The notes below the pieces were generated by a model. It was given only the letters and a program-made list of their open reading frames with translations. It had not been told where the DNA came from and searched no databases. Shown one piece after another: positions 32,881 through 63,850 of a DNA stretch of 64,000 nt (its first letter is position 1; every line of letters starts with the position of its first letter). Origin of the DNA: Halobacteria archaeon HArc-gm2 (GTDB taxonomy: Archaea > Halobacteriota > Halobacteria > Halobacteriales > Haloarculaceae); the NCBI GenBank assembly GCA_025517465.1, contig JAOPKE010000010.1:1-64000 (forward strand), written 5' to 3'. The position numbers and the translations under genes are program-made.

Positions 32881-32968
32881 GTTGTGACGGTGCAATTGTC
32901 TGGCCTACTATTTTGATTTAGCACCAAAAATGCCACTATTGGCCAGCGTGTTTGGACGGATACCCCTG

Positions 32969-46911: not shown

Positions 46912-48861
46912 ATGGCAGATTCAGAAATGAATCGCGGTCTGGCGCAGGTGATGTACCGGTTCGGTCCCGAGTCACTCTTCGACTACGGGCGACGGGGACT
47001 GTCGATGAAAGTATCCCGTTGGGAGACAGATAAGATCGGAACCCTCGATGCGAATTACGTCGCAGAACAGATTTCTACGCAGGCAGCCGGATTCCGGAAC
47101 GACGACGAGGATCCGTGGGCCGACCTCACGGTTGACGATGTCGACTTTCGCCGACCGAACCGGGTTGTCGGGTCACTGTATCCGCTCGTCATGTATTGCC
47201 AGAACCGGAGTTGTCACCGGGTAGTCAGCAAGAAGGAGCCGAGCCACTTCGTCTACACTGACGGCGAGTGTCCCGAATGTAGCGGAGACCTCCGGCAACT
47301 CGCGTTCGTACTCGTTCACGACTGCGGGAACATGATGTCGATCAACCCGCAACCCTGTAGTGACCCCGATCACGGGTACGACCACATCTACCTCAACAAG
47401 CAGAACATCAACGATCCGCTCTCGTGGTACTTCTATTGCGGTGAGTGCGGTGACTTCTGCGGGAACATGTCGAAGAGATGTACTAAATGTCACTCGGAAC
47501 GCGTGTACTTCCGACCGATCGCTAGCAATAGCGTATACTACTCACAGGGGGACGTCTTGGTCAATCTCCCGATAGACCAACGTTACAGTGACGATATCGA
47601 GTACGGTGAGAGTTGGGCTCGCATTTTGATGGCTGCCCACCTCGGGGATATCGACGACGTCGTAGAAGAGGAGAAGAAGACATACGAAGAGTTGGGGCGG
47701 ATGAGTGTCGACGAGCGTGACGCCAAAAGACGAGAGAAGCAAATCGAGGAGTTGAAAGAGAAAGTCGGAGCGGACCAAGTCGAGGCTATGATCGACAGTG
47801 GTGTTGACCTCGGTGACGTTTTCGACGTAGCAGAAGACACGATAAAGGGATCTACGCGAGAGGAAGTCGTCGAAGAAAACCGGGATCGTGTCGAACTACC
47901 GTCGCAACGTGAAGCTGACGGAGACGTCGAACAGGCGTATTCGACACTTTCCCACGAACTCTTCACCTATATCCGTTCGACACAGGGCTACGAAGGCGAC
48001 CTTGACGTGACGGAGGGGATGGAACGACAGCCGACACCTCTCTCCCTGGACGGCCTTCTCGATCAAGACGACTTCCTCGAGTCGAACCCAGAGGCAGAGG
48101 TCTACCCAGAGAAGCTCCAGAAGGTCAATATCGCATCGGCATGGGTCGTAGACAACCTCCCACTGCTGAATTATACGTTCGGGTTCACACGCGACCGACC
48201 CGAGCGGTCACGAACAGACCTCCAGCCCTTCCCACACCCCCGTGGAGAAGACACCACACCAGTATACGTCGATCAAACTCCTTCGGAGGCGATCGTCCTC
48301 CAGATAGACCGTGGAGCGATCGTAGACTGGCTCGAAGAGAAGGGGTCACTGAGAAGCATCGAGTCTCCCGACACCGATAACGAGAGCGAGCTCAAGCGTT
48401 GGTTCCTGGAAAACGTGGATACGAACGAACTTCAGGATCACCACTCGCCGGTCGAAGACGATCTCACGCGAGATGTGTATACTCTTCTACATTCGATGAG
48501 TCACGCTCTGATGCGGAAGGCGAGCGGTCAGTGTGGTCTCGACAGCAACAGTATCTCCGAATACGTGATGCCGAGTATTCCGGCGATTTTCCTCTACGCG
48601 AGCAGCACCGAACACTTCTCTCTGGGTGGAATGCACACGTTGTTCAAGACTCGAATCCACCCGTGGGTCGACGAGACGATCGCAGACGTACAGCAGTGTG
48701 TATACGATCCCGTGTGTTCCCACGAAGATGGGGCCTGTCACGCGTGCCTCTATATGAGTGAGGTTGCGTGTGAGAGTGCGAACGGGAACCTCGATCGACG
48801 ATATCTGGTCGGTGGTGGCCGCGGGCGTATACCGGCATTCTGGGAATCTGAATACGTGTGA
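46912..48861 (+). CDS. drmB: DrmB, DUF1998 zinc-binding protein
   Basis: The 649-residue protein has zinc-type Cys clusters in the N-terminal third (CQNRSCHRVV ... CPECSGDLRQ; CGECGDFCGN ... CTKCHSERV). A charged coiled coil (about 245-330) follows, and a DUF1998 domain at the C-terminus (about 520-640) has LLHSMSHALMRKASGQCGLD, SIPAIFLYASS and CVYDPVCSHEDGACHACLYM. DrmB is the obligate partner of DrmA. The genes are nearly contiguous and drmC overlaps its stop. Confidence 0.85.
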   Translation: MADSEMNRGLAQVMYRFGPESLFDYGRRGLSMKVSRWETDKIGTLDANYVAEQISTQAAGFRNDDEDPWADLTVDDVDFRRPNRVVGSLYPLVMYCQNRSCHRVVSKKEPSHFVYTDGECPECSGDLRQLAFVLVHDCGNMMSINPQPCSDPDHGYDHIYLNKQNINDPLSWYFYCGECGDFCGNMSKRCTKCHSERVYFRPIASNSVYYSQGDVLVNLPIDQRYSDDIEYGESWARILMAAHLGDIDDVVEEEKKTYEELGRMSVDERDAKRREKQIEELKEKVGADQVEAMIDSGVDLGDVFDVAEDTIKGSTREEVVEENRDRVELPSQREADGDVEQAYSTLSHELFTYIRSTQGYEGDLDVTEGMERQPTPLSLDGLLDQDDFLESNPEAEVYPEKLQKVNIASAWVVDNLPLLNYTFGFTRDRPERSRTDLQPFPHPRGEDTTPVYVDQTPSEAIVLQIDRGAIVDWLEEKGSLRSIESPDTDNESELKRWFLENVDTNELQDHHSPVEDDLTRDVYTLLHSMSHALMRKASGQCGLDSNSISEYVMPSIPAIFLYASSTEHFSLGGMHTLFKTRIHPWVDETIADVQQCVYDPVCSHEDGACHACLYMSEVACESANGNLDRRYLVGGGRGRIPAFWESEYV

Positions 48862-49766
48862 CCCGAGATACGAACTTCTCCCACGACCCCGATGCGATAT
48901 GTACTAATTTCACTGTAAGTCGTCAATTCGACGACTTCAGCCGAGTGGTGGCGATACGAGATGCCATCGTCGAAATCGGCCGTGAAGAGATTTCGCGTGC
49001 TGTCGTAAACGAGAAGCTAGACTCTCCACTTACGACCAGGGAGGCCGCGGCGGTGTTCACCTGTCTACAAAAGAACGGTGCAGCCACACAAGTAGCGACT
49101 GATGACGGAGGATTCGCCAACTACACGTTCAAGATCCATCCCGAAGAGGCATCAAGCGTGTTGACTCAGCAAGCTGCGGGCATCGCTTCTCGCGGATCCC
49201 CTGATCGAATGGAATCGAGTGAAACCGACGTAGAATTCGTCGCAACTCTCCCTGGCGGGTTCAACCCACGATCTACTCAAGTGCGTGCTCTTCCAGACAT
49301 TGCTTCGACGATTCGAAATCAAGTGTTCACAGCCGACTCGTCGATTCGGATCGCTAACCCGTATTTCGATCCCTCACTCGAACTGGTCGAGGATTTGTCG
49401 AGCCTCCCCCGGCGCGGAGTAGAGACACGCCTGCTGACACGGGAGACGGCCGATGAGGAAGGGGATACACACGTAACCCTCGACAAGATGTGGGAATTGA
49501 TAGATGAAGAACACCGTGCCAACTTCGAGGTCAGGGATCTATACAAGTGGGACAAGGAGAAGGGAGCCCAAGCATATGCTACGCATGCGAAGACCGTTAT
49601 TGTTGACGATACCGTCTGCTACGTCGGGAGTGCTAACCTCACCGATACGAGTCTCTTCACAAACTTCGAGTTCGGAGTTGTCGTGGAAGGTGACATCGTC
49701 GCGGAAGCGGTAGCACTGTTCGACGAAGTGTTCGAGTATTCTCATCCAGTGGAGTTCTCCGAGTAA
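48858..49766 (+). CDS. drmC: DrmC, phospholipase-D-like protein
   Basis: The 302-residue protein starts at a GTG overlapping the drmB stop by 4 nt. A winged-helix-like N-terminus (about 20-90: EISRAVVNEKLDSPLTTREA) is followed by a PLD domain: SIRIANPYFDPSLELVEDL and the HxK(x)4D motif in YATHAKTVIVDDTVCYVGS, then SANLTDTSLFTNFEFGVV. Only one complete HKD motif is present, as in other DrmC proteins, which may dimerise. In known DISARM the PLD protein is dispensable for some phages. Confidence 0.8.
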   Translation: MTRDTNFSHDPDAICTNFTVSRQFDDFSRVVAIRDAIVEIGREEISRAVVNEKLDSPLTTREAAAVFTCLQKNGAATQVATDDGGFANYTFKIHPEEASSVLTQQAAGIASRGSPDRMESSETDVEFVATLPGGFNPRSTQVRALPDIASTIRNQVFTADSSIRIANPYFDPSLELVEDLSSLPRRGVETRLLTRETADEEGDTHVTLDKMWELIDEEHRANFEVRDLYKWDKEKGAQAYATHAKTVIVDDTVCYVGSANLTDTSLFTNFEFGVVVEGDIVAEAVALFDEVFEYSHPVEFSE

Positions 49767-49885: not shown

Positions 49886-50881
49886 ATGCACCCGGATACG
49901 CCCCCTGACGAGTCTAACGTACTCGAAAAGGTCGAGACTGCCCTGAAACAGGCGGTCCGACAGAGCCCCGACTTGAGCTGGGAGTACGGTACGCGAATCA
50001 AGCGCCAGAAATATACCTACTTGGCAGTCGATCATTTCACGGGTGACGACGAACCGTTTCCAGTCACTTACAGCTGGTACAAGTTCGGCGCCGTGATGCC
50101 AGCGGCACCGAAATCGGGGACTATCGGTCCCGTGAGCACGCAAATGCCTGCGCCTGACGTGCGTGAGTCAGGAGTCTTCACAGTGACTTTCGACGAGATA
50201 GTTAATTTCTTTGAACAGGGAGACTTCACTCCTGGGCTGACCGAGGAATCTTGGTACGCGAGTGATCTGGAGTTCTTGTCGAGCTTCTACGAGCAGCACG
50301 CCCCCGACGACTATAGGGAACTGTACCTGGGCAATATCGAACTCCGTCAGAATCTCGACTCTGCTATCAGAGAACTAGAAGAGACCAGATCCGATTCCCC
50401 CGACCCGGTAATTCAGGTTGAGGACTACGAAGAAATTGGTCGGGCAGCCGCACGGGTTCATCTCGGCGTAATCCGTGGACCGGCGCTGGGTCAAACGTTA
50501 GACGAACTGCGACAGTTCACGAACCTAGTGGAGGACGCCTTCCTCGTACTCAGTCAGACTAATACGGGGGAGGTCACAGGGGACCAGCTAGAGCTCCTCT
50601 GTGATTTGAGAGACGTCTACAACGAGTGGGTCTGGGAGTACCCCGCGCTCTTGATGTCGAAGGAGACTGCACAAGGTCCCAACGCCTCGACGCTGCGGAA
50701 GTGGTCTTCACAGAAACACTTCTCTGTGGAAGACAATCTACAGGACAAGATCGAAGAGGTGGAGCAGTCGTGTTCGGCGGTTGGCTTGAAGCCGACCTCG
50801 TCACAGTATCCGGATCACGACGACGAAGTAGAGACCATCGGACGGAGGATAGCCCTTCAGGCTATGCGTCGGGATGACTGA
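49886..50881 (+). CDS. Unknown protein coupled to a PIN-like gene
   Basis: The 331-residue protein starts MHPDTPPDESNVLEKVETAL. An alpha/beta first part (TYLAVDHFTGDDEPFPVTYS; GVFTVTFDEIVNFFEQGDF) is followed by a mostly helical second part (about 140-330). No catalytic motif is seen. It overlaps the next gene by 8 nt and lies 119 nt after drmC on the same strand, so it likely belongs to the same system. It is not one of the DISARM components known to me. Confidence 0.6.
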   Translation: MHPDTPPDESNVLEKVETALKQAVRQSPDLSWEYGTRIKRQKYTYLAVDHFTGDDEPFPVTYSWYKFGAVMPAAPKSGTIGPVSTQMPAPDVRESGVFTVTFDEIVNFFEQGDFTPGLTEESWYASDLEFLSSFYEQHAPDDYRELYLGNIELRQNLDSAIRELEETRSDSPDPVIQVEDYEEIGRAAARVHLGVIRGPALGQTLDELRQFTNLVEDAFLVLSQTNTGEVTGDQLELLCDLRDVYNEWVWEYPALLMSKETAQGPNASTLRKWSSQKHFSVEDNLQDKIEEVEQSCSAVGLKPTSSQYPDHDDEVETIGRRIALQAMRRDD

Positions 50882-51659
50882 GTCAAGACCGAGAGGTACG
50901 GTGAACGACGTATTTACAGACACGTGTGTACTGTTCGATTACGCGGTTGAGAGTCAACCTACAGCGATAACTGTGTTCGAAGAACGACCAAGCCTAGACA
51001 AGGTAATCAGTCAGCGTATCCAACGGGAATTCGACTCGGTAGCGACTCGTCAGCAGGATATCCACCGGGAGTTACTGAATTTCGTGGTGAGGGAAGAACT
51101 CGACGAGTACGAACCAGAGAGTGTCGGTAGTCAGAAGAACGACGTCCGCTACGTCGTCGATCTCTACTCGGAATTGACCGAATTGGAGGAAGACGTCGAG
51201 GCAGTTCGGCGGTTGAACGAACTGATCAATCGTCTAGAGAAGGCACGTGACGAACTCTTCGGCCCCGAAGGCCGAGTTACTATCTTGACTGTTGATGGCG
51301 TAGATGCTCAACTGATGGGGCTGCTCCGTGGAGTTATAGAGAACGAAGCCGACGTACGAGTTCTGTGTGATGTCGTCGCTTGGAGGCGTAACGGTGGTTC
51401 AGGCGTGTTCCTTACCGAAGATACCGAAGATATCCTAGGTGACGGCGAATCTCGAGACGACGAGGACGGGGGCGACGATGAGGGCGGAGGAGGAGGGCTA
51501 CCTGATTCGTTCGACGATTTCTTCGGAACTGAAGACAAGTCAGTACCAGACCGGATCAACGACCAAATCGTGATCCGGTACGATTCTGAATCTAAGTTGT
51601 CCATCCTCTCCACAGGGGACTTCATTAACAGAAAGCATTCGAAGCAAGAATCTATCTAA
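50874..51659 (+). CDS. PIN-like nuclease candidate
   Basis: The 261-residue protein begins MTESRPRGTVNDVFTDTCVL; the VFTDTCVLFDYA start and the later SGVFLTEDTEDIL give the separated acidic residues of a PIN fold, with helices between. A Gly/Asp-rich linker (about 195-215) precedes a short C-terminal tail. PIN domains cut RNA or single-stranded DNA. With the overlapping upstream gene it could form a toxin/antitoxin-like effector pair inside the DISARM locus. Confidence 0.5.
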   Translation: MTESRPRGTVNDVFTDTCVLFDYAVESQPTAITVFEERPSLDKVISQRIQREFDSVATRQQDIHRELLNFVVREELDEYEPESVGSQKNDVRYVVDLYSELTELEEDVEAVRRLNELINRLEKARDELFGPEGRVTILTVDGVDAQLMGLLRGVIENEADVRVLCDVVAWRRNGGSGVFLTEDTEDILGDGESRDDEDGGDDEGGGGGLPDSFDDFFGTEDKSVPDRINDQIVIRYDSESKLSILSTGDFINRKHSKQESI

Positions 51660-51762: not shown

Positions 51763-52452
51763 TTATCGAGATTCGGCGACGATTTCTCGAATCATCTCTC
51801 GTGCCTCATCCTCTGATAGCCCTTCGAGCTGTACGTTCGTCAGTGCGTGGTTGAACCGTCGCGTCGTCTCGTCAATGACACTCGACTTTTCGTCTGCGAG
51901 TTCGTCACACATCACCCGAACGGCGGGCTGATAGCGCGCAAACCAGCGGTCGAACACCTTGTTGACCATCGTCTGGTTGGCAAAGACTGCATCTGTTATC
52001 GAATAGTCGTCACCACGGGATGTGAGCTCCGCGATCCACCAGAGACGGTGGATCGCATTCGAGTACAGGTCGGTGCCTGCACCGAGGAACTTCTCTCTCA
52101 TCGCTTCTTCGGACCGATACTTCCAACGGTACCGGACGAGATCGTGATACTTGACGACTGCTAGCCAGTGCCAAAGACCTGGATCGCCGGCGGTTCGTCT
52201 CGTGATATCGAGGCCCCGGTGAATGTCTTCGGCGAGTGACCCATCTATAGCTGTTTCGTGCTTCGGGTACTCCTCTAGCGCCTTCTCTACCGCCGAATCG
52301 ATCTTGTCGAGGTCAGCCGTCGGATGACCAGGCATGGGCTCCACGTACTCGTTCAGCTGTTCTTCGGTGAGCGTCGCCTCGCCTTTCATGAACGATTGAC
52401 CAACAAGTCGGCGCCCATCTTCCGTCAGTCGGTGTAATTCTGTATCGGTCAC
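51763..52452 (-). CDS. Cassette 1 gene C: DUF6339-like helical protein
   Basis: The 229-residue protein has, in its centre, GDPGLWHWLAVVKYHDLVRYRWKY (about 93-116) and FLGAGTDLYSNAIHRLWWIAEL (about 124-145). These conserved blocks recur in the third gene of cassette 2 at 63.1 kb (TGLWHYL, VHYRW, KAGTDAYSNALHRIWWGAEL) and recall DUF6339 proteins. The helical remainder is acidic. It follows gene B with one base between them. Role unknown; an adaptor or effector of the GHKL ATPase is possible. Confidence 0.65.
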   Translation of the reverse strand: MTDTELHRLTEDGRRLVGQSFMKGEATLTEEQLNEYVEPMPGHPTADLDKIDSAVEKALEEYPKHETAIDGSLAEDIHRGLDITRRTAGDPGLWHWLAVVKYHDLVRYRWKYRSEEAMREKFLGAGTDLYSNAIHRLWWIAELTSRGDDYSITDAVFANQTMVNKVFDRWFARYQPAVRVMCDELADEKSSVIDETTRRFNHALTNVQLEGLSEDEAREMIREIVAESR

Positions 52453-52453
52453 G

Positions 52454-53491
52454 TTAAATCTGGAGGCCCTCCTCCATGAGGTGGATCAGTTGCTCTCGTG
52501 GGTTTATGTACTCTTGAAGTTCGCTATCGATCCGCTGTACCACGTAGGGTAGAGTCTGTGGGTCAGAGAGTTCGTCCTTGAGACGGCGGGTCGCTTCCGA
52601 CGCGTCGTTAGTATCGTAGAGGTTTGGGGCGAACGTCTGGAGCACCATCTCCTGCCACTCGTGCTCGACGTCGCCCTCTACGTCTACCGCACTTCCGGCC
52701 CGAACGAGCAGTTGTACCCATACACCGTAGCTTACCTGATCCAGTATCACGTCACGCATACGAGCTTCGGCCCCGACAGATCCTCTATTCTGTAGCACCT
52801 CGGCAATACGTGGATGGTCGGAGTTGATCCACAATTTAGGGCGACTCTCATTCCGGAAGTCGAGGTAGTACAACTTGTTCCCATCTGGGAGGTGAGCGTT
52901 TCGTGAGAACCGTACTCGTTCACCATCGATGGCGGCATGCTCTTCGCCGTCGGGCCGGTCGACGACGACGTAGTACAGTGGCCCACTGGCGACGCGGAAG
53001 TTCTGTTGATCGGCGTAATCGTTCGGTTCTTCTTCCTGGCGTGATTCTGTCCGAACGAGATACGGACGTAGTTCGACTGTCCCTCGGACAGTGCTCTTGG
53101 GAACTTCTATCACGACGTCGTATTCACCGGGCGTGGTCGGGGCTTCGGAGATAACGACCCGGTCACGGTAGATTGTCTCGTGGCAGCGAATGGTGACGTA
53201 TAGCTTGGCTGGAGGCTGTGCCCGCTCGTCCTGGGGAAAGACTGCCTGGACAGTCTCCTCGGGCAGACGTAGTTTCCCGTGGAGAGTGATGGTATTCCAA
53301 TTCGGCTCGTCACTACTATCAGACGACGATACCGTCGACGCGAGGTCGATCTCTGTTTGTGTCGGTTTCAGTTCGAGCGGGGTCTGATTCCCGTCGTCAA
53401 CGGCGAACGAGTCTAGCTCGAAATCGACTCCGGTTTCCCGGTAGCTGAATGGAAGGGTCGTAGTCCGGTATCGTTGCGAGTGTCTGGTCAC
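52454..53491 (-). CDS. Cassette 1 gene B: beta-rich protein
   Basis: The 345-residue protein has many beta strands in the first half (WNTITLHGKLRLPEETVQAV; AKLYVTIRCHETIYRDRVVI; VRGTVELRPYLVRTE) and a helical C-terminus. The blocks HLPDGNKLYYLDF, PKLWINSDHPRIAEVLQN and VSYGVWVQLL match gene B of cassette 2 (DNHIHYLSL, PQLYLNREHKQVANVLNN, IEHSVWTQLL). It sits between the GHKL ATPase and DUF6339-like genes with gaps of 1-2 nt. Family not recognised. Confidence 0.65.
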   Translation of the reverse strand: MTRHSQRYRTTTLPFSYRETGVDFELDSFAVDDGNQTPLELKPTQTEIDLASTVSSSDSSDEPNWNTITLHGKLRLPEETVQAVFPQDERAQPPAKLYVTIRCHETIYRDRVVISEAPTTPGEYDVVIEVPKSTVRGTVELRPYLVRTESRQEEEPNDYADQQNFRVASGPLYYVVVDRPDGEEHAAIDGERVRFSRNAHLPDGNKLYYLDFRNESRPKLWINSDHPRIAEVLQNRGSVGAEARMRDVILDQVSYGVWVQLLVRAGSAVDVEGDVEHEWQEMVLQTFAPNLYDTNDASEATRRLKDELSDPQTLPYVVQRIDSELQEYINPREQLIHLMEEGLQI

Positions 53492-53493
53492 AC

Positions 53494-55392
53494 TTAGTCC
53501 CCCTCGGATGTCTGTAACTCTGCGAGTATCTCTAATTGTGTCGCACCGACATCACCGTGCACCAAGTCCGCGGCTTCGTCGGAGTGCGAACGACCAGAGA
53601 ACGAGACCTCGTCAACGTATTCTTCGGCGACGAGGTGAGCACAACCGTCGTCGTACGTCACGGTCACGCCGGATTGGTCGATCTCGACTTGATCGATGGG
53701 AATGTCGTCGTAATGGGATCCGTCTTCCCCAACACCGGTGAGTGAGATGTCGGCGCTCCATCCATCGAACTCCTCAGGGAGTACTATAATTCGACCAGAG
53801 ACTGCCCACGCGTCGCCATCGAATCGAGACGAGCTTTCGATCTCGAAGGCAGGCTCGGCGGGCGACACCGTGGAACGAGGGTTCCCGCTCCCGTGGATCG
53901 GGAACCGATTCAGGACGTTGTCGGAGAGCGAGTCGCCGCTGCCCCCTTTCGAGATCAAGTGACGAAGGCCGTCCCGCAACGTTCCGAACATGTCGTCGAG
54001 TGCCATCCGGAAGCCGCGTTGATACTGCTCACGGAGGTTCTCGGTGGACTCCCACTCGTCGTGCTCGGGTGGTTCGGCGAAGCGGAGAAATCGGTCGATC
54101 TCTAGATCACTTTCGGACGGGGCCCCTTCCATCCGTGCTTCGCCAGCGGCCAGTACGCCGAAGAAGTTTCGATCACCGTAGGCGACACGGCTCTGGTCGT
54201 AGTACTTGACCACCATCCCTGCTCCCCGAAACAGGGCGACGTTGTTCAGGTACGCATCGTCGTCTGCGGGAGATGCGAGACGAGCCGACAACCGTACTGA
54301 GCCGTCGGGAGTCTCAGCTCCATCTGCACGAGGTGGTAGCTCGACTGGAATATCGAGTCCGGCGACGTCTCCAGGATCCACTAGCGTCTGGGTGTCTGTC
54401 ATTCTCTCGTCGTAAGCCTCGACGAAGGGCCTGATCGCCGGGACGCTCTGTACGTCGGCCGTCAGCGTCTCGTCTGGCGTTTCGACCGTGATTTCGAGGT
54501 CTCCCCGATAGATCGCTGGCCAGAAGTACTTGACAGAGGCATCTACGAACTCTTGTGCGAGGTCCTGGACGTCAGGTCGTTCGTCACGCGTCGGGTCCTG
54601 GAACTCGACTACCATAGCACTCGTTCCGCTATTAACGGGCCGTTCCACGTACAATTGTTCTGCGAGCCGCGACGCGCGCTCTCCCCAGAAGGACTCTGGA
54701 CGGGGGCCATCGTCCGTCTCGATTGGCTGGCAGAGCCATCCCGCACCTTGGTACGTCGTATCGTCCTCAGGGAGTTGGTGTGTGGGGAACTTGGAGCGGG
54801 CGATGAGTCTCGGGGAGTCGTCTCCACGCTCACCGTGTGCGAGGTGCGAGTTGAAGACGACTGTCGAAGCGCCCGAGAAAGTCCAGAGTACGGACTTACC
54901 GAGACCGTACGAACCGCCGGCGGTGTCGTCCTGCTTACTACTGTAGAGCTCGTCGCGAACCAGCGCGGCGTAGTTCGAGTCTTCGTCCCAGCTCCCTGTC
55001 AAGCCGGTCGTATTGCTGTCTTCGACGACGAGGAGTCGGAGTTCGGCATCGGAGTCGTTGACCCGTTCGACGACCCGCTCGTAGCGATGACCATTGTGTG
55101 TGTCTGCGACGGCTCGCATCCGTTCGCCGAGCCCATCGTCCCAGCCGAGTGCGTCCAGGAACTCCTCTTTCTCCTCACCAGTGAGCGTGACGAACCCGAA
55201 CTCCACTTTGACCGGCTCGCCGTTCGGGAGGCCCTGGTCGTTCGCGTTTTGTAGGACCTCACGTACGAACGCCTCGGAGTCGTGGTCTACGGCGTGTTTG
55301 GTCGGATCGTCGCCGTATCGTGGCGCTCCCGGTCCACCACTGAAGAAGAACCACTCGGCAGTTTCGTCGATCGGTATCTGCTCTTGATCCAT
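53494..55392 (-). CDS. Cassette 1 gene A: GHKL (Bergerat-fold) ATPase
   Basis: The 632-residue protein has the N box FVREVLQNANDQG (E45, N49, D52), G1-like LLVVEDSNTTGLTG (D124 region) and G2-like GGSYGLGKSVLW (about 159-170), as in HSP90/MutL/MORC-type ATPases. The middle and C-terminal parts (about 230-470) are shared with the paralogue at 60.1 kb (PAIYRGDLEITVE, VALFRGAGMVVKYYDQSRV, FLRFAEPPEHDEW). GHKL ATPases usually dimerise through ATP and clamp or bend DNA. First gene of a compact three-gene operon, divergent from the methyltransferase. Confidence 0.75.
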   Translation of the reverse strand: MDQEQIPIDETAEWFFFSGGPGAPRYGDDPTKHAVDHDSEAFVREVLQNANDQGLPNGEPVKVEFGFVTLTGEEKEEFLDALGWDDGLGERMRAVADTHNGHRYERVVERVNDSDAELRLLVVEDSNTTGLTGSWDEDSNYAALVRDELYSSKQDDTAGGSYGLGKSVLWTFSGASTVVFNSHLAHGERGDDSPRLIARSKFPTHQLPEDDTTYQGAGWLCQPIETDDGPRPESFWGERASRLAEQLYVERPVNSGTSAMVVEFQDPTRDERPDVQDLAQEFVDASVKYFWPAIYRGDLEITVETPDETLTADVQSVPAIRPFVEAYDERMTDTQTLVDPGDVAGLDIPVELPPRADGAETPDGSVRLSARLASPADDDAYLNNVALFRGAGMVVKYYDQSRVAYGDRNFFGVLAAGEARMEGAPSESDLEIDRFLRFAEPPEHDEWESTENLREQYQRGFRMALDDMFGTLRDGLRHLISKGGSGDSLSDNVLNRFPIHGSGNPRSTVSPAEPAFEIESSSRFDGDAWAVSGRIIVLPEEFDGWSADISLTGVGEDGSHYDDIPIDQVEIDQSGVTVTYDDGCAHLVAEEYVDEVSFSGRSHSDEAADLVHGDVGATQLEILAELQTSEGD

Positions 55393-55586: not shown

Positions 55587-56702
55587 ATGAAGGTAGCCGC
55601 AGTAGATCTGTTCTGCGGGGCCGGTGGACTCAGTTACGGGCTCCAGCAAGCCGGCGTCTCAGTCGTCGCGGGGATCGATTGGGACCAAGACTGTAAGCAT
55701 GCGTACGAACAGAACGTGGACGGGGAATACGTGCGAGCAGACGTCAAGGCGCTGGCACAGAATCCCGAACCAATCGCCCAAATGTACCCGTGGGATGCGG
55801 ATCTAAAGGTCCTCGCGGCGTGTGCTCCTTGTCAACCGTACTCGACGATGGGTCACTCGAAGGGGAAAGACCACGATGATCATCAAAAGTGGGGACTACT
55901 GAACGAGGTATCCCGGATCGCCGAGTACGTGGAACCGGACGTAGTGATCACCGAAAACGTGCTACAGGTGAAACAAGAGGACGGCGTCTACGACGCGTTC
56001 ATCGAGAGTCTCGAGTCCCAAGGTTACCACGTCAACAGCGACGAGAACAAGAAGGTCTACTGTCCCGAATACGGGATCCCGCAGAAGCGGAAGCGATGGG
56101 TTGTCATGGCGTCCAAACGTGGTCCGCTCTCGCTGGCCGACCCACCCATTCAGAACGAAGACGACTACCCCACGGTCAAAGACACGATCGATGGCCTGCC
56201 ACCGATCGAAGCAGGAGAAGTTAGTGACGAGAACGACGTCCATAGAGCACGTTCTCTCTCGGATAAGAATCTGGAACGCATCGACAACATGGAACCCGGT
56301 GGAGATTGGACTCTCTGGGAAGAGGAGGGTCTCGACCATCTCCTCGCAGACTGCCACCAGAAGGCGAGTGGACGCTCGTACAAGGCCCCATATAGCCGGA
56401 TGCGACCCGACGAACCCTCTCCGACGATCACGACGCAGTTCTACAATTACGGGAGTGGGCGTTTTGGACACTACGACACGGACCAGAACCGGGCACTCTC
56501 GATCCTCGAAGGGGCACTGCTTCAGACGTTCCCGGAAGATTATGACTTCTACGACGAGTGGGAGGACGTCGGCGTATCGAATCTGGGCCGGTTGATCGGT
56601 AACGCTGTTCCCCCGAAACTCGGTGAGTACATGGGTCAAGCAATACTCTCCCACGTCGGCGTCGCAGCGCCGTCTGTCGAGACCACCGCCGCTGGGGACT
56701 GA
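55587..56702 (+). CDS. drmMII: DNA C5-cytosine methyltransferase (DrmMII-like)
   Basis: The 371-residue protein has the complete C5-MTase series: motif I VDLFCGAGGLSYGL, motif IV ACAPCQPYSTMG with the catalytic Cys, motif VI VITENVLQVK, motif VIII QKRKRWVVMASK, motif IX RALSILEGALLQTFP and motif X IGNAVPPKLGEYMGQ. It should form 5-methylcytosine at a sequence that cannot be read from the protein. Class 2 DISARM uses such an enzyme to mark self DNA, so it is named accordingly. Separated from drmABC by cassette 1 on the other strand. A mismatch glycosylase follows 10 nt after its stop. Confidence 0.85.
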   Translation: MKVAAVDLFCGAGGLSYGLQQAGVSVVAGIDWDQDCKHAYEQNVDGEYVRADVKALAQNPEPIAQMYPWDADLKVLAACAPCQPYSTMGHSKGKDHDDHQKWGLLNEVSRIAEYVEPDVVITENVLQVKQEDGVYDAFIESLESQGYHVNSDENKKVYCPEYGIPQKRKRWVVMASKRGPLSLADPPIQNEDDYPTVKDTIDGLPPIEAGEVSDENDVHRARSLSDKNLERIDNMEPGGDWTLWEEEGLDHLLADCHQKASGRSYKAPYSRMRPDEPSPTITTQFYNYGSGRFGHYDTDQNRALSILEGALLQTFPEDYDFYDEWEDVGVSNLGRLIGNAVPPKLGEYMGQAILSHVGVAAPSVETTAAGD

Positions 56703-56712
56703 GAGCCAACCC

Positions 56713-57348
56713 ATGTCATCCGAGCCGGAGCGCCGATTTAGGACAGAGCTGCTCGAATGGGGAGAAGAGAACCGCCGCGAGTACTCGTGGCGGGAACCGG
56801 ATCGAACACTGTACGAGGTGTTCGTAGCGGAGTTCTTCCTGACGCAGACACCGGCTGACAACGTCGGAGCGGTCTATCCCAGGTTCTTGGAACTGTTCCC
56901 CACGCTGGACGAAATAGCGGATGCCAATGAGGACGAACTCGTCGAAGTTATCGAACCCCTCGGATTCCAAAATATGCGCGCACAGGCACTGAAGCGAATT
57001 GCCTCGACACACGACCACCTCCCCACTCGGGCAGAATCGCTGATGGAGCTGCCGCGAGTGGGTCGGTACGTAGCGAACGCCACGTTGTGCTTCGCCCGTG
57101 GTGACCGGTTACCGGTACTCGACAGGAACGTCGAGAGGGTGTACAGCCGGGTATTTCGAGATGTGTGGACCGAGACAGAAGCGGATCAGCTGGCTTTCAC
57201 GGAAAAACTGGTTCCTGACGAGGCCCGCACGTACAATCTCACCCTCCTCGATTTCGGTGCCCTGATCTGTCAGACTGAACCGTTGTGTGAGCAGTGTTTC
57301 GCCAATGAATACTGTGACTATTTCCGAGAATCGTCGAGGGGAACGTAG
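56713..57348 (+). CDS. HhH-GPD mismatch DNA glycosylase, Mig (T:G) type
   Basis: The 211-residue protein starts MSSEPERRFRTELLEWGEEN. It has an HhH-GPD domain with hairpin LPRVGRYVANATLCFARG and LPVLDRNVERV (catalytic Asp137), and a C-terminal 4Fe-4S loop C-x5-C-x2-C-x5-C. At the position of the endonuclease III lysine it has Tyr119 (LPRVGRY). The thymine glycosylase Mig of Methanothermobacter, partner of a C5-methyltransferase, also has Tyr there. Mig removes T from T:G pairs produced by deamination of 5-methylcytosine, and this gene follows a C5-MTase by 10 nt. It therefore most likely repairs the side effects of self-methylation. MutY-type A:G activity is the alternative. Confidence 0.75.
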   Translation: MSSEPERRFRTELLEWGEENRREYSWREPDRTLYEVFVAEFFLTQTPADNVGAVYPRFLELFPTLDEIADANEDELVEVIEPLGFQNMRAQALKRIASTHDHLPTRAESLMELPRVGRYVANATLCFARGDRLPVLDRNVERVYSRVFRDVWTETEADQLAFTEKLVPDEARTYNLTLLDFGALICQTEPLCEQCFANEYCDYFRESSRGT

Positions 57349-57611: not shown

Positions 57612-58385
57612 GTGACTCCGAACGGGGACACCAAACACGAAGAGCCCCTCATCCTCCACTGTTTCGCTGACTACGGAATGGAATCTGAGGTACTCAACGA
57701 CTTCGGGAACGTAGTCCGTGTCGGAATCGATCCGAAGGACACGAACGAGAGCACGCCGATCAAGGCAGACGCCCACATTGAGGAAAAGGAGTGGGACATC
57801 CCCATCAAAGATGACGTCACCTTCGATCTCGGACTGTTTCACCCGGTTTGTTCACGGTGGGCCGCGACGACGAGTATCTCGGGAGACCCCGACGAACACG
57901 AGAACATGATCCCGAGCGCACGGACACTCGCGGAAAAATACTGTGATCACTACATCATAGAGAACGTTCCGCGCGCACCGCTTCACGATCCTCTCGTGTT
58001 GAACGGACGGATGTTCGGGATGCCGATCGAGTACGAGCGCGCGTTCGAAACTTCCTTCGCGGTTCCACAGCCACCCCGTGAGAAGCGGTTCTTGACGACA
58101 GATGGGTCGTCTGAGAAAGCCGAGACCTCGTCGTTCTACTTCTCCGAACGGTCCAAAGAGTGGTGGGCGGCGGTCAAAAATTACCCACCAAGGCCGTATC
58201 CGAAGAGTCACATAGCGAAGAACGCGATTCCCGCGCCGTTCATCTACTACTTGGTTCGGCAGTGGTTGATGGTGTACGAGGACGAGCAAGGGATCTCGGA
58301 AGGTCGCGTGGACTACTCCAACTACGACAAGCGAATGGACACCAAGCGCAAAAGCGAGGACAATCGCCAGTTAGACGAGTTCTGA
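57612..58385 (+). CDS. Divergent second C5-methyltransferase-like protein
   Basis: The 257-residue protein starts at GTG. A Rossmann-like start (ILHCFADYGMESEVLNDFGN; VVRVGIDPKD) is followed by GLFHPVCSRWAATTS at the place of motif IV, where Cys is kept but the usual Pro-Cys is Val-Cys. Next comes YIIENVPRAPLHDPLVLNGR, similar to motif VI (ENV), and NAIPAPFIYYLVRQWL, similar to motif X. It is short for a C5-MTase, with no visible motif VIII QxRxR or target-recognition domain. It could be a phage-type methyltransferase, a non-catalytic regulator or a modified-base sensor. A 263-nt gap without visible genes separates it from the glycosylase gene. Confidence 0.6.
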   Translation: MTPNGDTKHEEPLILHCFADYGMESEVLNDFGNVVRVGIDPKDTNESTPIKADAHIEEKEWDIPIKDDVTFDLGLFHPVCSRWAATTSISGDPDEHENMIPSARTLAEKYCDHYIIENVPRAPLHDPLVLNGRMFGMPIEYERAFETSFAVPQPPREKRFLTTDGSSEKAETSSFYFSERSKEWWAAVKNYPPRPYPKSHIAKNAIPAPFIYYLVRQWLMVYEDEQGISEGRVDYSNYDKRMDTKRKSEDNRQLDEF

Positions 58386-58449: not shown

Positions 58450-59976
58450 ATGGGCGAGAACGAATGTCAAGTATATCTGGATCGGGATTCGAACACTTCG
58501 TACGTCGGGGACCCGTTCGTCGGTGTGCCAGTCTCTCGCGATATCGTGAAAACCGTCGCTACTCGGTATCACGTAGAGGCCGATTCACTCGCCAGAGCCC
58601 TGAGAGAAGTACGAAGCACGTCTGTGATCGACGTCGAAACCCTCTTTACGGGCTTCGACCCCCTTCCCGTCGGTCGAAGTGATAACGGGCTGTTGTACGT
58701 GCTAGCCGAGGCAGACGGGTGTTGGGACACTGTGGCCGGTCGAATCGGATTGACAGAAGACGGTCGTGACGCCGTAGCGACCGCTCACGACCGACAGGTC
58801 AGTAAGGTAATAGGAGACAGAGGGGTAGAAGGCAGTGGTGGGTTCGTTGTCTCGTGTTCGGAGTTTCCCACGGAGGCTATCGATGATATTGTAGCGGTGG
58901 TTGGGAAGACCAGACTAACGAATCGACAGGCGACGACGTGGATCCTCTCTCAGTATGTCCCAGGTAGTGACGCAATCGCCCGGATACTCTCGATTCCCGA
59001 GCCGATCGTGCAATCGGAACTCGCCACCGTCGACAGGGCTACGCGGCGGAGTGTAGCAGAGACGAGAACTCTCGACGTACCTGGACCACTCACTCGCCTG
59101 GATCCGGAACCCCAGTCCCCGACGTGGATGGGACTCGATTGGTCGAAGTGGTTCGACCTTCGGGACTGGAAAAGCCTTTGTAAAGAACTACCACGCCGCC
59201 CAGGCCTCTACCGGGTTCGGCACTCGGAACTTCCGGGGTTGATGTATGTCGGGGAGTCGGGGGCGCAGGGAGGTGTTCGAGAGCGAGTAGGACTTGGCCT
59301 GTCGGCCGGGGTGAGCGGATCGGAACGACAGACTGTAGACCAACACGGTGCGGCGGATCCCCTTCGACAAATCACCGAGATTGCGGGGGGTAACGTGGAG
59401 GTTTCTGTTACGACACCTCCGATAACGTCGAATCGGAGACATCGACGTGCAATCGAGGCGACTCTGGTGGCGATCTGTCGGCGAGAGACCGGCTGGACTC
59501 CTATGGTCCAATTGAAACGAGAGCCTGCAGACCACGTGAGCGGTAACCACGACGAGGTCCATCGAGAGTTACGGGACATCACAGAACGGTCCTCTTACTC
59601 CGTGCCATCGTGGCAGCCCTGGCGTGACGTGACCGCCCCGTACTGGTTGGGACTCGACTGGACCGAGAGCCGTCCGCTCTGTCAGCGAGATACGATCGAC
59701 ACTAGTGGAGTACACGCGTTTCGAGTGTGGCGAGAGGCTCAGGCTGGAGAACGGTGGTGCCAACCACTCCAAGTAATCGGCACGACGGGATCGATATCGA
59801 GTCGACTGTTCAAACTACAGAGCGAGTATGGAGACGACGTCCGTTTCTCTGTCGTCCGTCTCGACGGGCTGAGCACGGACGCACAACGTCGGTCGCGTGA
59901 ACTGAGTGAAGTCCGCTACGACCTCATCGGCGCACACTACTTTGCCACTGGCACTCCCCCAAAGGCACAGTTCTGA
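58450..59976 (+). CDS. Protein with tandem GIY-YIG-like domains
   Basis: This 508-residue protein has a unique N-terminal region (about 1-210). A GIY-YIG domain (about 245-360) shows PGLYRVRHSELPGLMYVGES (GIY...YIG), GVRERVGLG (Arg) and RRAIEATLVAICRRETGWTP (Glu helix). The C-terminal part repeats the layout: PYWLGLDWTES recalls MGLDWSKW before the first domain, then GVHAFRVW, LQVIGTTGSISSRL and RELSEVRYDLIGAHYFATGT. The second copy has lost the Gly-Glu-Ser and the clear catalytic Arg, so it may bind rather than cut. GIY-YIG enzymes cleave DNA, so this is a likely effector nuclease of the locus. Confidence 0.65.
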   Translation: MGENECQVYLDRDSNTSYVGDPFVGVPVSRDIVKTVATRYHVEADSLARALREVRSTSVIDVETLFTGFDPLPVGRSDNGLLYVLAEADGCWDTVAGRIGLTEDGRDAVATAHDRQVSKVIGDRGVEGSGGFVVSCSEFPTEAIDDIVAVVGKTRLTNRQATTWILSQYVPGSDAIARILSIPEPIVQSELATVDRATRRSVAETRTLDVPGPLTRLDPEPQSPTWMGLDWSKWFDLRDWKSLCKELPRRPGLYRVRHSELPGLMYVGESGAQGGVRERVGLGLSAGVSGSERQTVDQHGAADPLRQITEIAGGNVEVSVTTPPITSNRRHRRAIEATLVAICRRETGWTPMVQLKREPADHVSGNHDEVHRELRDITERSSYSVPSWQPWRDVTAPYWLGLDWTESRPLCQRDTIDTSGVHAFRVWREAQAGERWCQPLQVIGTTGSISSRLFKLQSEYGDDVRFSVVRLDGLSTDAQRRSRELSEVRYDLIGAHYFATGTPPKAQF

Positions 59977-60041: not shown

Positions 60042-60110
60042 ATGAATCGTAGCGCGTACTTCTCCGACATGGTTGCGTTCGCACCCGCTAGCGCCGGTGG
60101 GGTGTCGTGA
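60042..60110 (+). CDS. Possible 22-residue leader peptide
   Basis: It reads MNRSAYFSDMVAFAPASAGG plus VS. Its TGA overlaps the ATG of the GHKL ATPase gene as TGATG, and its own ATG has correctly spaced promoter sequence. It may be a leader that couples translation of cassette 2, or a relic of the gene's former N-terminus. Confidence 0.4.
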   Translation: MNRSAYFSDMVAFAPASAGGVS

Positions 60111-61999
60111 TGAGCAGCCAGTGGGGATTCACCACTTCTCGACCGACCGATGCACGGTACGGTGACGACGTCGCAAAGTACGCGATGTCGCACGGCGAGC
60201 CGGGGTTGAAGACGTTCGTTCGGGAGGTGCTACAGAACTCGAACGACGCTCGGTTGGACAACGATCAACCGGCACGAGTCACGTTCAAGCTCGATTCATT
60301 ACAGGACGACGAGGCGATAGAGTACCTCAGCGCACTCGATATAGACAACTGGGCTGACCACGCCGATCTAGCGACAGATACCGAGAGTGGGAAACACATC
60401 TTGGAGGCCATAGAGCGGATCAAGGACGACGAGGAGATCCGCGTTCTGACCATCGAGGACGAGAACACAGAGGGTCTCCTCGGAGAAGAAAACGCCGACG
60501 AATCGAACTTTACCGCTCTGGTCCGAGACGTCCTGTTCAGTAGTAAGTCTGGAGACACCGCCGGGGGGAGTTACGGCCTGGGGAAGGCTGTCCTCTGGCT
60601 GTACTCGGGCCTCTCGCTCGTCATGTTCAACTCCACGCTGAGTGAGCCCGACCCGAAAGACGACTCTCCCCGATTGATCGGCCGGACGCGCTTGCCGACG
60701 CACAAGTCGAAGGACGGTGACACGGTCTATCAAGGCCACGGTTGGTATGGTAGTCTGAACGGCGATGAAGCGGGTGCGAGGCCGGAGTCTATCTGGGGCG
60801 ACGACGCCGACGGGGTCGCAGAAGACCTCCAGCTTAGTCGTCCCGACGTCCCCGGGACCAGCATCCAAGTCGTGGACTTCCGCGTGCCCACTGCGGAAGA
60901 GCGTCTAGACGACGAGGAGTTAGCTGACCAAATTACAGAGATGGCGATCGAGTGGTTCTGGCCAGCGGTGTATCGTGGTGACCTGGAGGTCGCAGTCGAA
61001 GTTGATGGGGAGACGAAGGAAGCAAGTATCGACGAGTATCCTCGGTACGAACCCTTCACGAGCTGTCTGGACAACCGAGAGGACTCGGTTGATAAGTTGG
61101 AGGAACGTGGTGATGTCGCGCAGGCGACCATCTCCCTCGACGTCCCCGAGAAAACAGGTGGCAATGGTGGTGCAGATGGCGAACTCGACTTGCTGGTTCG
61201 ACGTGCAGAGACGGGCGAGTATCAGCATCAGAACGAGGTGGCGTTCGTACGAGGGGCGGGAATGGTGGTCGAATACTACGACCGAGACCGGGTCGTCGTC
61301 GGGAACCAGGACTTCCACGCTGTCCTCTTAGGCGGGCGCGCACGGCCGTGGGGGACCAACGAGAATCCAGGAGAAGCAGACACGACCGTAGAGGAGTTCT
61401 TGACCGCTGCAGAGCCACCTCAACACGACGAGTGGGTGAGAACGGAGACATTGGCGAACACCTACTCTCGGGGGTTCCGGACCGCAGTAGAAGGTATCAA
61501 ATCCGACGTGACCCAGAGGCTACGTGGGCTCGTCGCTCCCGACGTCGATCGAGGTGCGACCGGCCCCCAGCGTCTCGGGAACCGGTTCAAGATCGGAAAC
61601 GAATCCCGCGAAGGCCGTTCTGATTCCGAGTCACCCAGCAGTCAGCGTGTTACCGGAAACACGAACATCTCGTTCGACGAGGTGTACACTCACTGGTCGT
61701 TCGACGGCGAGGTGGAGCCATCGAACGACCGTAACGAGATACGATCGGTTACCGTATCGCTAGTTCGAATGGCGGAAGAGAGAGCGACGTCGGATCGCCT
61801 TCCTGTACAGAATATTTCGTCAGATACGGCAGGGGTCTCGATATCACTCCCGGAGGAGAACGGCGTGCAAGTGGGACGGCTGGAACCAGCTCCCGGTACA
61901 TCAGAGATTTCCTTCGAAGGCGTGTCGAAAAGGGACTCTAGACAAGTCGAAACCAGGCTGAAGGTTTCGGTCGACGTGGCAGAACGGAGGGACGACTGA
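60110..61999 (+). CDS. Cassette 2 gene A: GHKL ATPase
   Basis: This 629-residue protein is a clear paralogue of the cassette 1 ATPase: N box FVREVLQNSNDARL (E39, N43, D46), VLTIEDENTEGLLG and GGSYGLGKAVLWLYSG. Further matches are RYGDD near the start, FWPAVYRGDLEVAVE, EVAFVRGAGMVVEYYDRDRV and FLTAAEPPQHDEW. The ATG at 60110 follows a GTG at 60107; either may be used. It shares its last base with the start of gene B. Predicted DNA-acting or assembly ATPase of the DISARM-linked locus. Confidence 0.75.
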   Translation: MSSQWGFTTSRPTDARYGDDVAKYAMSHGEPGLKTFVREVLQNSNDARLDNDQPARVTFKLDSLQDDEAIEYLSALDIDNWADHADLATDTESGKHILEAIERIKDDEEIRVLTIEDENTEGLLGEENADESNFTALVRDVLFSSKSGDTAGGSYGLGKAVLWLYSGLSLVMFNSTLSEPDPKDDSPRLIGRTRLPTHKSKDGDTVYQGHGWYGSLNGDEAGARPESIWGDDADGVAEDLQLSRPDVPGTSIQVVDFRVPTAEERLDDEELADQITEMAIEWFWPAVYRGDLEVAVEVDGETKEASIDEYPRYEPFTSCLDNREDSVDKLEERGDVAQATISLDVPEKTGGNGGADGELDLLVRRAETGEYQHQNEVAFVRGAGMVVEYYDRDRVVVGNQDFHAVLLGGRARPWGTNENPGEADTTVEEFLTAAEPPQHDEWVRTETLANTYSRGFRTAVEGIKSDVTQRLRGLVAPDVDRGATGPQRLGNRFKIGNESREGRSDSESPSSQRVTGNTNISFDEVYTHWSFDGEVEPSNDRNEIRSVTVSLVRMAEERATSDRLPVQNISSDTAGVSISLPEENGVQVGRLEPAPGTSEISFEGVSKRDSRQVETRLKVSVDVAERRDD

Positions 62000-63069
62000 T
62001 GGCGACTGTCGACGATGCGGCTGAAGGAGCTGAACAGGACGAATCAGGAGACGAGGACGTCCAGACTGGAAGTTTAGTTAGCCAATCACTCCCCCACGAG
62101 TACCTGAAAGAAGCACTCGAATTCGACGTCGAATCGTTCCGTCTAGACGGGACTCCTCTCGGTGACCGAGGAACACTCGACGAAGACGATCAGTTTCTAT
62201 CGCTGGTGGACGAGGGTAACTGGGGGACTTTGGAGATAGACGGCGCGGTTTCCGTTGAACAGGATGTTGTTGAGGACGCCTTCCCCTTCCAAGAGTGGGA
62301 AGAGACGCCAGGTCGTCTCGCACTGGTGAAGGAGAACCCCCTCGCGCACACTCGAGACCGGGAGATACTCACCGACTCACCGTCGGGTGGGGAAATCTAC
62401 GAATTCACGTTGTCCATCGATCGTGACGACTACCGTGGACGAGTGAAGATCAAGCCGTTCCTCACCAGAACCGAGAAAGGCGAGTCCGGTGGGTCGAATC
62501 ACGCGTCTAAGGTCGGCGCACGAGTCGCTGACGGACTCTCGTGGGTCATCCGACTCGACGATAGTGAGGACGGTGGAGGACTTCTCATGCCGATCATCGA
62601 GGACTTTAGCGACTACGATGAATTCCCCGGCGATAATCACATCCACTATCTCAGCCTGGATCCGCCTCGGAACCCACAGCTCTACCTGAACAGGGAACAC
62701 AAACAGGTGGCTAACGTTCTGAACAACACTGGAACCACGGGTGGGCCACCAAGGCTGCGTGAAGTGCTCTACGACTACATTGAGCACTCAGTCTGGACAC
62801 AGCTATTGATGCAGACCGCAGGCGACACTAGCCCCGACACAGGCGAACCAGAGTACGCTTGGCAGGAAGACGTATTAGACATCTTCTTGGACGAGTTGTA
62901 TCCCGATCTCGCCGACGATGAGGCGGCGATTCAACTCGCCGAAGACGTTCGCAGTCACGTCGATATTCCAGACCTCGTCCAGAGAATCGACCGTGCAGTG
63001 CATCATAAGTTCGACATCCCGTCCGATGCGACGAATCTAATCGAGGAGGCGATCCAAAGTGACGACTGA
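61999..63069 (+). CDS. Cassette 2 gene B: beta-rich protein
   Basis: The 356-residue protein is homologous to gene B of cassette 1 in the blocks RGRVKIKPFLTRTE, DNHIHYLSLDPPRNPQLYLN, QVANVLNNTGTTG and IEHSVWTQLLMQTA. The acidic N-terminal ~40 residues are probably disordered. It overlaps both neighbours (TGATG before, 11 nt after), so the three genes are translated as a unit. Confidence 0.65.
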   Translation: MATVDDAAEGAEQDESGDEDVQTGSLVSQSLPHEYLKEALEFDVESFRLDGTPLGDRGTLDEDDQFLSLVDEGNWGTLEIDGAVSVEQDVVEDAFPFQEWEETPGRLALVKENPLAHTRDREILTDSPSGGEIYEFTLSIDRDDYRGRVKIKPFLTRTEKGESGGSNHASKVGARVADGLSWVIRLDDSEDGGGLLMPIIEDFSDYDEFPGDNHIHYLSLDPPRNPQLYLNREHKQVANVLNNTGTTGGPPRLREVLYDYIEHSVWTQLLMQTAGDTSPDTGEPEYAWQEDVLDIFLDELYPDLADDEAAIQLAEDVRSHVDIPDLVQRIDRAVHHKFDIPSDATNLIEEAIQSDD

Positions 63070-63850
63070 GCTACAACACCTACAGAGCGCAGCCCAGCCA
63101 ATGGTCGACAACCGTTTCCTCGCGGACGAGCGAGAACTCACAGAGGACGATCTTGGTCCCTACCTACAGCCACTGGGCCGGTCCTTAGACCTGAGTCCAA
63201 TCGACGAGCGCATCAAGGAGATTCGTGCTGACGACGAAATCGAAGCTCAGAGCTCGCTCATTGATGCCGAGCTAGCACCGACACTCCACCGGACTCTCGA
63301 TCTGACACGTAATGAGGCGGCAGACACCGGACTGTGGCACTATCTTTGCATCGTTCGGTTCCCGGAGTTCGTTCACTACCGGTGGGACCACGTCTACGAC
63401 CCAGAGAGTCCGGGTAACATGAAAGAGAAGTTCTTGAAGGCCGGTACGGACGCCTACTCCAACGCACTCCACCGGATCTGGTGGGGCGCTGAGCTCACTT
63501 ACGAGGACGGTGAGTCGGGAGAGGTAGAGGACCGTGACTACAGTAGAACGAAGCGAGTGCTCGGATTCCAGGAACTCGCCAACGACATTTTGGACCACAA
63601 CTTTGCACGGTACGTCCCGGTTACGCACGCTTGCGGTGACCTCCTCTGCCACGATATGTTAAACGACATCAAGGAAGAGGGTACCTACGACGATCCACCG
63701 TCGAACAGTAACATCGTGAGTCGCACGACGACACTACTCCGGGAGGAACTGACGGTTCGACGTGTGGAGATGATGGAAGAAGACGACATCGTGGAGACGA
63801 TAGAGGACCTCCGTGACGTCGTCATGCGTAGGGAGGCTGGCTGGTCGTAG
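63059..63850 (+). CDS. Cassette 2 gene C: DUF6339-like helical protein
   Basis: The 263-residue protein starts at GTG inside gene B. The central blocks TGLWHYLCIVRFPEFVHYRW and FLKAGTDAYSNALHRIWWGA match cassette 1 gene C; it is 34 residues longer, mainly in an Asp/Glu-rich insert and C-terminus. No catalytic motif is seen. Its position as third gene of a GHKL operon is the same as in cassette 1. Confidence 0.65.
   Translation: MTTELQHLQSAAQPMVDNRFLADERELTEDDLGPYLQPLGRSLDLSPIDERIKEIRADDEIEAQSSLIDAELAPTLHRTLDLTRNEAADTGLWHYLCIVRFPEFVHYRWDHVYDPESPGNMKEKFLKAGTDAYSNALHRIWWGAELTYEDGESGEVEDRDYSRTKRVLGFQELANDILDHNFARYVPVTHACGDLLCHDMLNDIKEEGTYDDPPSNSNIVSRTTTLLREELTVRRVEMMEEDDIVETIEDLRDVVMRREAGWS

Follow-up and report, generated by a model that had tools for sequence, protein, structure and literature searches.

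The 64,000-nucleotide stretch of DNA analyzed here (the window; positions 1 to 64,000 of contig JAOPKE010000010.1 from Halobacteria archaeon HArc-gm2) carries at 56713-57348, on the plus strand, a gene for a putative Mig-type T(U):G mismatch glycosylase with an HhH-GPD domain and a 4Fe-4S loop. We consider it likely, with a probability of roughly 0.8, that this gene encodes a monofunctional Mig-type enzyme, whose predicted repair of T:G (and U:G) mispairs would protect the 5-methylcytosine sites of the adjoining C5-cytosine DNA methyltransferase (C5-methyltransferase). The gene is under purifying selection, its product has the predicted fold and the specificity residues of Mig, and its homologues are paired recurrently with diverse C5-methyltransferases, in some cases as fusions.

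5-Methylcytosine is a mutagenic self mark; each unrepaired deaminated site turns into T. In the mechanism that we propose, the 5-methylcytosine written by the adjoining C5-methyltransferase would serve a defence cassette as its self mark. Deamination of 5-methylcytosine to thymine, or of cytosine to uracil, would give a T:G or U:G mispair, which the glycosylase would recognise, flipping out the thymine or uracil and excising it. Host base excision repair would then restore the C:G pair, and the site would be methylated anew. Since the two genes lie on the same strand, 10 bases apart, they are probably co-expressed, and the modifier would therefore travel with its own mutation guard.

The glycosylase: fold, specificity residues and phylogeny

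A preliminary description of this DNA had placed a glycosylase gene directly after a C5-methyltransferase gene, and this arrangement was confirmed. The open reading frame (56713-57345, stop codon 57346-57348) encodes 211 amino acids and starts 10 bases downstream of the stop codon of the PF00145 gene on the same strand. An alternative GTG start at 56623 would run into the methyltransferase gene; homologues align from the ATG at 56713, and among those 78-85% identical the start and the 10-base gap are mostly kept. The dN/dS ratio (nonsynonymous to synonymous substitution rates) against four homologues was 0.11-0.21, indicating purifying selection. The protein has a single HhH-GPD domain (Pfam PF00730, 55 bits against a cut-off of 26), a four-cysteine iron-sulfur loop and a Mig-like length. 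The active-site features named earlier are likewise all present in the alignment: Tyr119 stands opposite the catalytic Lys120 of Escherichia coli endonuclease III, so that the lysine of that enzyme is missing here, and Asp137 stands opposite the catalytic Asp. The iron-sulfur loop reads C186-x5-C192-x2-C195-x5-C201, its first spacer being shorter by one residue than that of Mig (C-x6-C-x2-C-x5-C), and each loop cysteine is found in 54 or 55 of the 55 Mig-like rows aligned. A scan of viral contigs returned no relative; matches in phage records were 27-35% identical, and these records are mostly unannotated or labelled mutY.

The closest solved structure is that of Mig from Methanothermobacter thermautotrophicus (1KEA). 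It was the best match in a phmmer sequence search of the PDB (2.7e-28), with MutY a close second (2.2e-27), and it also ranks first by Foldseek. The AlphaFold2 model of the window glycosylase (predicted local distance difference test score, pLDDT, 94) superimposes on 1KEA with a Z score of 26.9 and 1.6 Å across 206 residues; the corresponding Z scores were 24.4 for the best MutY and 23.1 for endonuclease III.

The preliminary description had read Tyr119 as a mark of Mig. This reasoning is weak, because 37 of 40 MutY rows carry Tyr as well, and Tyr119 is thus not diagnostic. According to PMC2714593, which cites Fondufe-Mittendorf et al., A50 and L187 determine the T:G preference of Mig (the MutY equivalents are V45 and Q182), and A50V together with L187Q converts Mig to an adenine glycosylase; the same paper records that the reverse exchange in E. 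coli MutY gave no T:G activity. Therefore, the specificity pair is strong evidence, albeit insufficient. At the positions of Mig A50 and L187 the window protein has Ala48 and Leu176, not the Val and Gln of E. coli MutY. The Ala/Leu pair is present in 32 of the 55 Mig-like rows, and with Gly/Leu or Ser/Leu, found in 13, the count rises to 45/55. Leu is absent from the second position in all 40 MutY rows, and none of them pairs Ala, Gly or Ser with Leu; the haloarchaeal MutYs mostly have Leu/Asn. The pair is a better marker of Mig than Tyr119. Arg27 and Tyr119 are also common to the window protein and Mig; E. coli MutY has Gln and Ser there.

The main tree comprised 108 rows, the long or partial rows L180, L187, L188 and L227 being excluded. 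The MutY clade, which holds sequences from E. coli, other bacteria and haloarchaea and the MutY of the window genome itself, has a support of 100/98 and excludes the window protein, which is thus not a MutY; the clustering with true MutY that would have spoken against the earlier assignment did not appear. The window family (33 rows) has a support of 98/89, and its grouping with the founding Mig and all other C5-methyltransferase-linked glycosylases received a bootstrap value of 97 but a Shimodaira-Hasegawa-like approximate likelihood ratio (SH-aLRT) value of only 70. The tree cannot settle whether the window family is closer to the founding Mig or to MutY. Of the proposed Mig-type assignment, the part carried by the Ala/Leu pair, by the position outside the MutY clade and by the proximity to 1KEA stands, and common descent with the founding Mig is left unproven by the tree. 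A third haloarchaeal HhH-GPD group lies near MutY and Mig (L067, L068, L071, L072, L075, L076, L192, L195, L197 and L207); it has His at the second specificity position and does not adjoin C5-methyltransferases.

Recurrent pairing with C5-methyltransferases

The partner of the window glycosylase, a C5-cytosine DNA methyltransferase of 371 amino acids (55587-56702, plus strand; PADLOC DrmMII, 838 bits; PF00145, 169 bits), is the sole PF00145 match in the genome. Such a neighbour recurs in other genomes. Of the 55 Mig-like rows, 51 have a C5-methyltransferase at a distance of 5 kb or less, against 1/40 MutY rows and 0/11 of the third haloarchaeal group; within 500 bp the respective counts are 40/55, 0/40 and 0/11. 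On a first tree of 112 rows the presence of a C5-methyltransferase neighbour required 7 changes, compared with about 37 in shuffles, and 6 on the later tree. The nearest methyltransferases of the Mig-like rows make up 13 groups when clustered at 40% identity and are located upstream or downstream, on the same strand or divergently, or are fused to the glycosylase, and this variety is unlike one inherited neighbour. The predicted role in protecting 5-methylcytosine thus survives those refutation tests that could be run, namely the exclusion from the MutY clade and the examination of neighbouring genes.

The founding mig gene is situated on plasmid pFV1, 1.4 kb from the C5-methyltransferase of a restriction system (a C5-methyltransferase/NgoPII-type pair). 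On Thermus plasmids the frames of glycosylase and C5-methyltransferase overlap, with no annotated restriction enzyme adjoining. Further pairings were found on Caldicellulosiruptor pCALKR01 (with a PLD-type restriction enzyme), in Natronobeatus, and in Alisedimentitalea, where an MvaI/BcnI restriction enzyme accompanies the pair. Besides, there are three fusions of a C5-methyltransferase and a Mig-like glycosylase in a single open reading frame (L063:6383-8221, L215:5977-7833 and L115:1388-3244). Both halves of the acidobacterial fusion L115 (619 amino acids) appear intact; the glycosylase halves of the haloarchaeal fusions L063 and L215 are without some active-site residues.

Among 391 haloarchaeal genomes, a C5-methyltransferase is present in 44 of the 46 with a Mig-like gene, compared with 138 of the 345 others. 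The 46 genomes were hand-picked (the window family at E values below 1e-40, a second group and the fusion in G040), and the second group was recognised through its linkage to C5-methyltransferases, so this count is not blind; the accompanying Fisher comparison treats related genomes as independent and is indicative only. For the window family alone the count is 27 of 29 genomes. More tentatively, C5-methylation-based defence in archaea and bacteria might in general recruit a dedicated Mig-type companion, whichever restriction module is in use (type II, DISARM, GHKL/DUF6339, or lone plasmid methyltransferases); in the lineages where the two are fused, the fusion may check each site at methylation.

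Loss of the glycosylase and alternative roles

Several observations weigh against a protective, Mig-type role. Relative to Mig, the window protein has Thr in place of R47 and Tyr in place of F27. A topology that unites the window family with MutY, apart from the founding Mig, was not rejected by the approximately unbiased (AU) test (p 0.68). In the 138 sampled genomes mentioned above, a C5-methyltransferase is present and no Mig was detected. Furthermore, some relatives with an intact C5-methyltransferase have a broken glycosylase gene: in-frame stops disrupt it in G008 and G342, a frameshift in G216. At L044:13001-13630 and L046:13001-13627, beside an intact C5-methyltransferase, TAG codons interrupt it opposite CAG, TCG and TGG of the window. 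No Mig copy was found in the cassettes of G037 and G013, where the C5-methyltransferase is present, and in the otherwise matching cassette of G003 (L231:7589-9580), which has a C5-methyltransferase, a two-gene insert stands in place of Mig and encodes a 387-amino-acid GHKL-like protein and a 272-amino-acid protein, perhaps a paraMORC-type pair. Conversely, G240, a 99% complete genome without a PF00145 methyltransferase, has an intact Mig-like gene (C1:266921-267541). Since Mig has been lost from several cassettes that retain the C5-methyltransferase, the glycosylase gene is dispensable, and an accessory repair gene fits these findings better than an obligatory effector does.

The protein could be a short MutY-like adenine glycosylase, acting in A:G or A:8-oxoguanine repair and present in a defence island by chance, which we regard as quite improbable. 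Its sequence and fold are almost as near to MutY as to Mig, the AU test leaves the window family and MutY unseparated, and it scores 140 bits with the NCBIfam model for mutY. However, this score is about half the cut-off of that model (286.5), and the protein stops after the iron-sulfur loop, without the C-terminal domain that recognises 8-oxoguanine in MutY. Its specificity pair is Ala/Leu rather than Val/Gln, its position is outside the MutY clade, and the genome has a separate long MutY elsewhere (L228). The near absence of C5-methyltransferases beside MutY genes likewise disagrees with such an identity.

An antiviral effector, which would excise bases at unmethylated viral sites as a restriction glycosylase or act on modified viral bases in the manner of Brig1, seems very improbable. 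The gene does lie in a defence locus, and no gene of its cassette encodes an obvious restriction nuclease; this explanation also gains support from the existence of base-excision restriction by the PabI family (PMC10273834) and of the antiviral glycosylase Brig1 (PMC11078745). Yet relatives of the glycosylase occur in systems with a separate restriction enzyme (the NgoPII type of pFV1, MvaI/BcnI in Alisedimentitalea, the PLD type in Caldicellulosiruptor), those on Thermus plasmids adjoin C5-methyltransferases without an annotated restriction enzyme alongside, and the cassette survives the loss of the glycosylase gene. Scarcely plausible is an addiction element, in which the glycosylase would stabilise the methyltransferase gene by harming a host that lacks methylation, as proposed for Vsr-like proteins. 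Caulobacter VsrA damages cells in the absence of its cognate methyltransferase (PMC12907096), and the glycosylase is a pseudogene in G281, a genome without any C5-methyltransferase; the intact copy in G240 speaks against this view. Several loci, moreover, kept the methyltransferase after losing the glycosylase, and the upkeep of the former is thus independent of the latter.

The methylation cassette, DISARM and known systems

The preliminary description had the glycosylase built into a DISARM-like locus. The DISARM set is indeed present, all on the plus strand: DrmE (40425-42956, 843 amino acids; PADLOC DrmE 1454 bits, NCBIfam DrmE_fam 80.2 against a cut-off of 80), the helicase DrmA (43190-46909, 1239 amino acids; 2693 bits), DrmB (46912-48861, 649 amino acids; 1476 bits) and the PLD nuclease-like DrmC (48858-49766, 302 amino acids; 488 bits, PLDc_2 70 bits). 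Mig itself belongs to a separable cassette composed of the GHKL/DUF6339 module, the C5-methyltransferase, Mig and a small methyltransferase. Of the 29 genomes that carry a window-family Mig, 12 (that of the window and 11 others) have DrmB and 17 do not, and 8 of 20 DrmB genomes are without an intact Mig of this family. In G182, G094, G185 and G267, which have a Mig 80-82% identical and no DrmB, the four components are still together; in G182 ordinary chromosomal genes follow directly beyond the DUF6339 end. Because the cassette stays together in genomes without DrmB, Mig is part of the methylation cassette and not of DISARM. Where DrmB occurs, it is linked to the cassette in every genome that could be followed, including the contig-end case G239; in G101 and G342 it lies 11-14 kb downstream.

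Two genes accompany the close DrmABC sets, for proteins of 331 amino acids (49886-50881, plus strand; 69-72% identical in G295, G265, G373, G008 and G058) and 261 amino acids (50874-51659, plus strand; 64-66% in the same genomes). The first GHKL module follows on the minus strand: a DUF6339 family protein (51763-52452, 229 amino acids; PADLOC PDC-M33C 57 bits), whose Halomicrobium urmianum orthologue is annotated DUF6339, a second gene kept with the module (52454-53491, 345 amino acids; 83-88% in close relatives), and a GHKL-type ATPase divergent from the methyltransferase (53494-55392, 632 amino acids; PDC-M33A 81 bits), in which the motifs EVLQNANDQG, VVEDSNTTGLTG and GSYGLGK can be read. 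Downstream of Mig, on the plus strand, lies the small C5-methyltransferase-like protein (57612-58385, 257 amino acids; phrog_363 DNA methyltransferase, 4e-6). Its HPxC and IEN motifs are invariant, it leaves scant room for a target domain, its structure model reached a pLDDT of 36, and its gene often directly adjoins Mig. The next gene encodes a 508-amino-acid protein with a GIY-YIG-like motif (GLYRVR...MYVGES; 58450-59976, plus strand), which is 76-83% identical in close cassettes and had no family match in Pfam, PADLOC and PHROG-type profile searches. A second module follows on the plus strand, with a GHKL ATPase (60107-61999, 630 amino acids; PDC-M33A 118 bits, 40% identical to the first copy), a b gene (61999-63069, 356 amino acids) and a DUF6339/PDC-M33C gene (63059-63850, 263 amino acids; 53 bits). 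The two diverged three-gene modules (51763-55392 and 60107-63850) thus lie on either side of the methyltransferase genes; other genomes carry more distant copies in place of the second one, and PDC-M33B had no match among the b genes of either module. Two other genes of defence type precede DISARM, at 32930-34141 and 39535-40428; they match SoFic at 389 bits and PDC-S31 at 63 bits, respectively.

Among known systems, Mig itself (Mig.MthI, pFV1) has the same fold, length, 4Fe-4S loop, active-site Tyr and Asp, Ala/Leu pair and C5-methyltransferase neighbourhood. The window protein is 29% identical to it and, apart from the two substitutions given above, differs in its haloarchaeal host and in its partner, a GHKL/DUF6339 cassette beside DISARM instead of a type II restriction-modification pair. 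MutY has in common the HhH-GPD core, with catalytic Glu and Asp and usually Tyr, and differs in its C-terminal domain, its Val/Gln pair, its own clade and its gene neighbourhood. Vsr, with Dcm, has the same proposed task of T:G repair for a C5-methyltransferase (PMC12907096); however, it has an unrelated nuclease fold and nicks DNA without excising the base. DISARM is represented by DrmE, DrmA, DrmB, DrmC and DrmMII, but no glycosylase was among the PADLOC or NCBIfam DISARM models met, and both Mig without DISARM and DISARM without Mig occur; PADLOC has a matching 221-amino-acid model labelled 'REase_II, Type II nicking endonuclease'. The PADLOC candidate PDC-M33 was matched twice each in its M33A and M33C components, but not in M33B, and the modules here are tied to the C5-methyltransferase, Mig and the small methyltransferase.

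The occurrence of Mig beside a C5-methyltransferase is already known from pFV1. As far as our searches show, three aspects are new: how widely the pairing occurs, its DISARM/GHKL setting and the fusions. A search of mainly open-access literature returned no description of Mig in DISARM loci. Together with its relatives, this locus suggests that a mobile methylation system often brings its own repair enzyme, which some loci have since lost. Such losses leave natural pairs with and without the enzyme in otherwise similar cassettes, for instance G003 and the window, in which the mutational cost of 5-methylcytosine used in defence could be measured.
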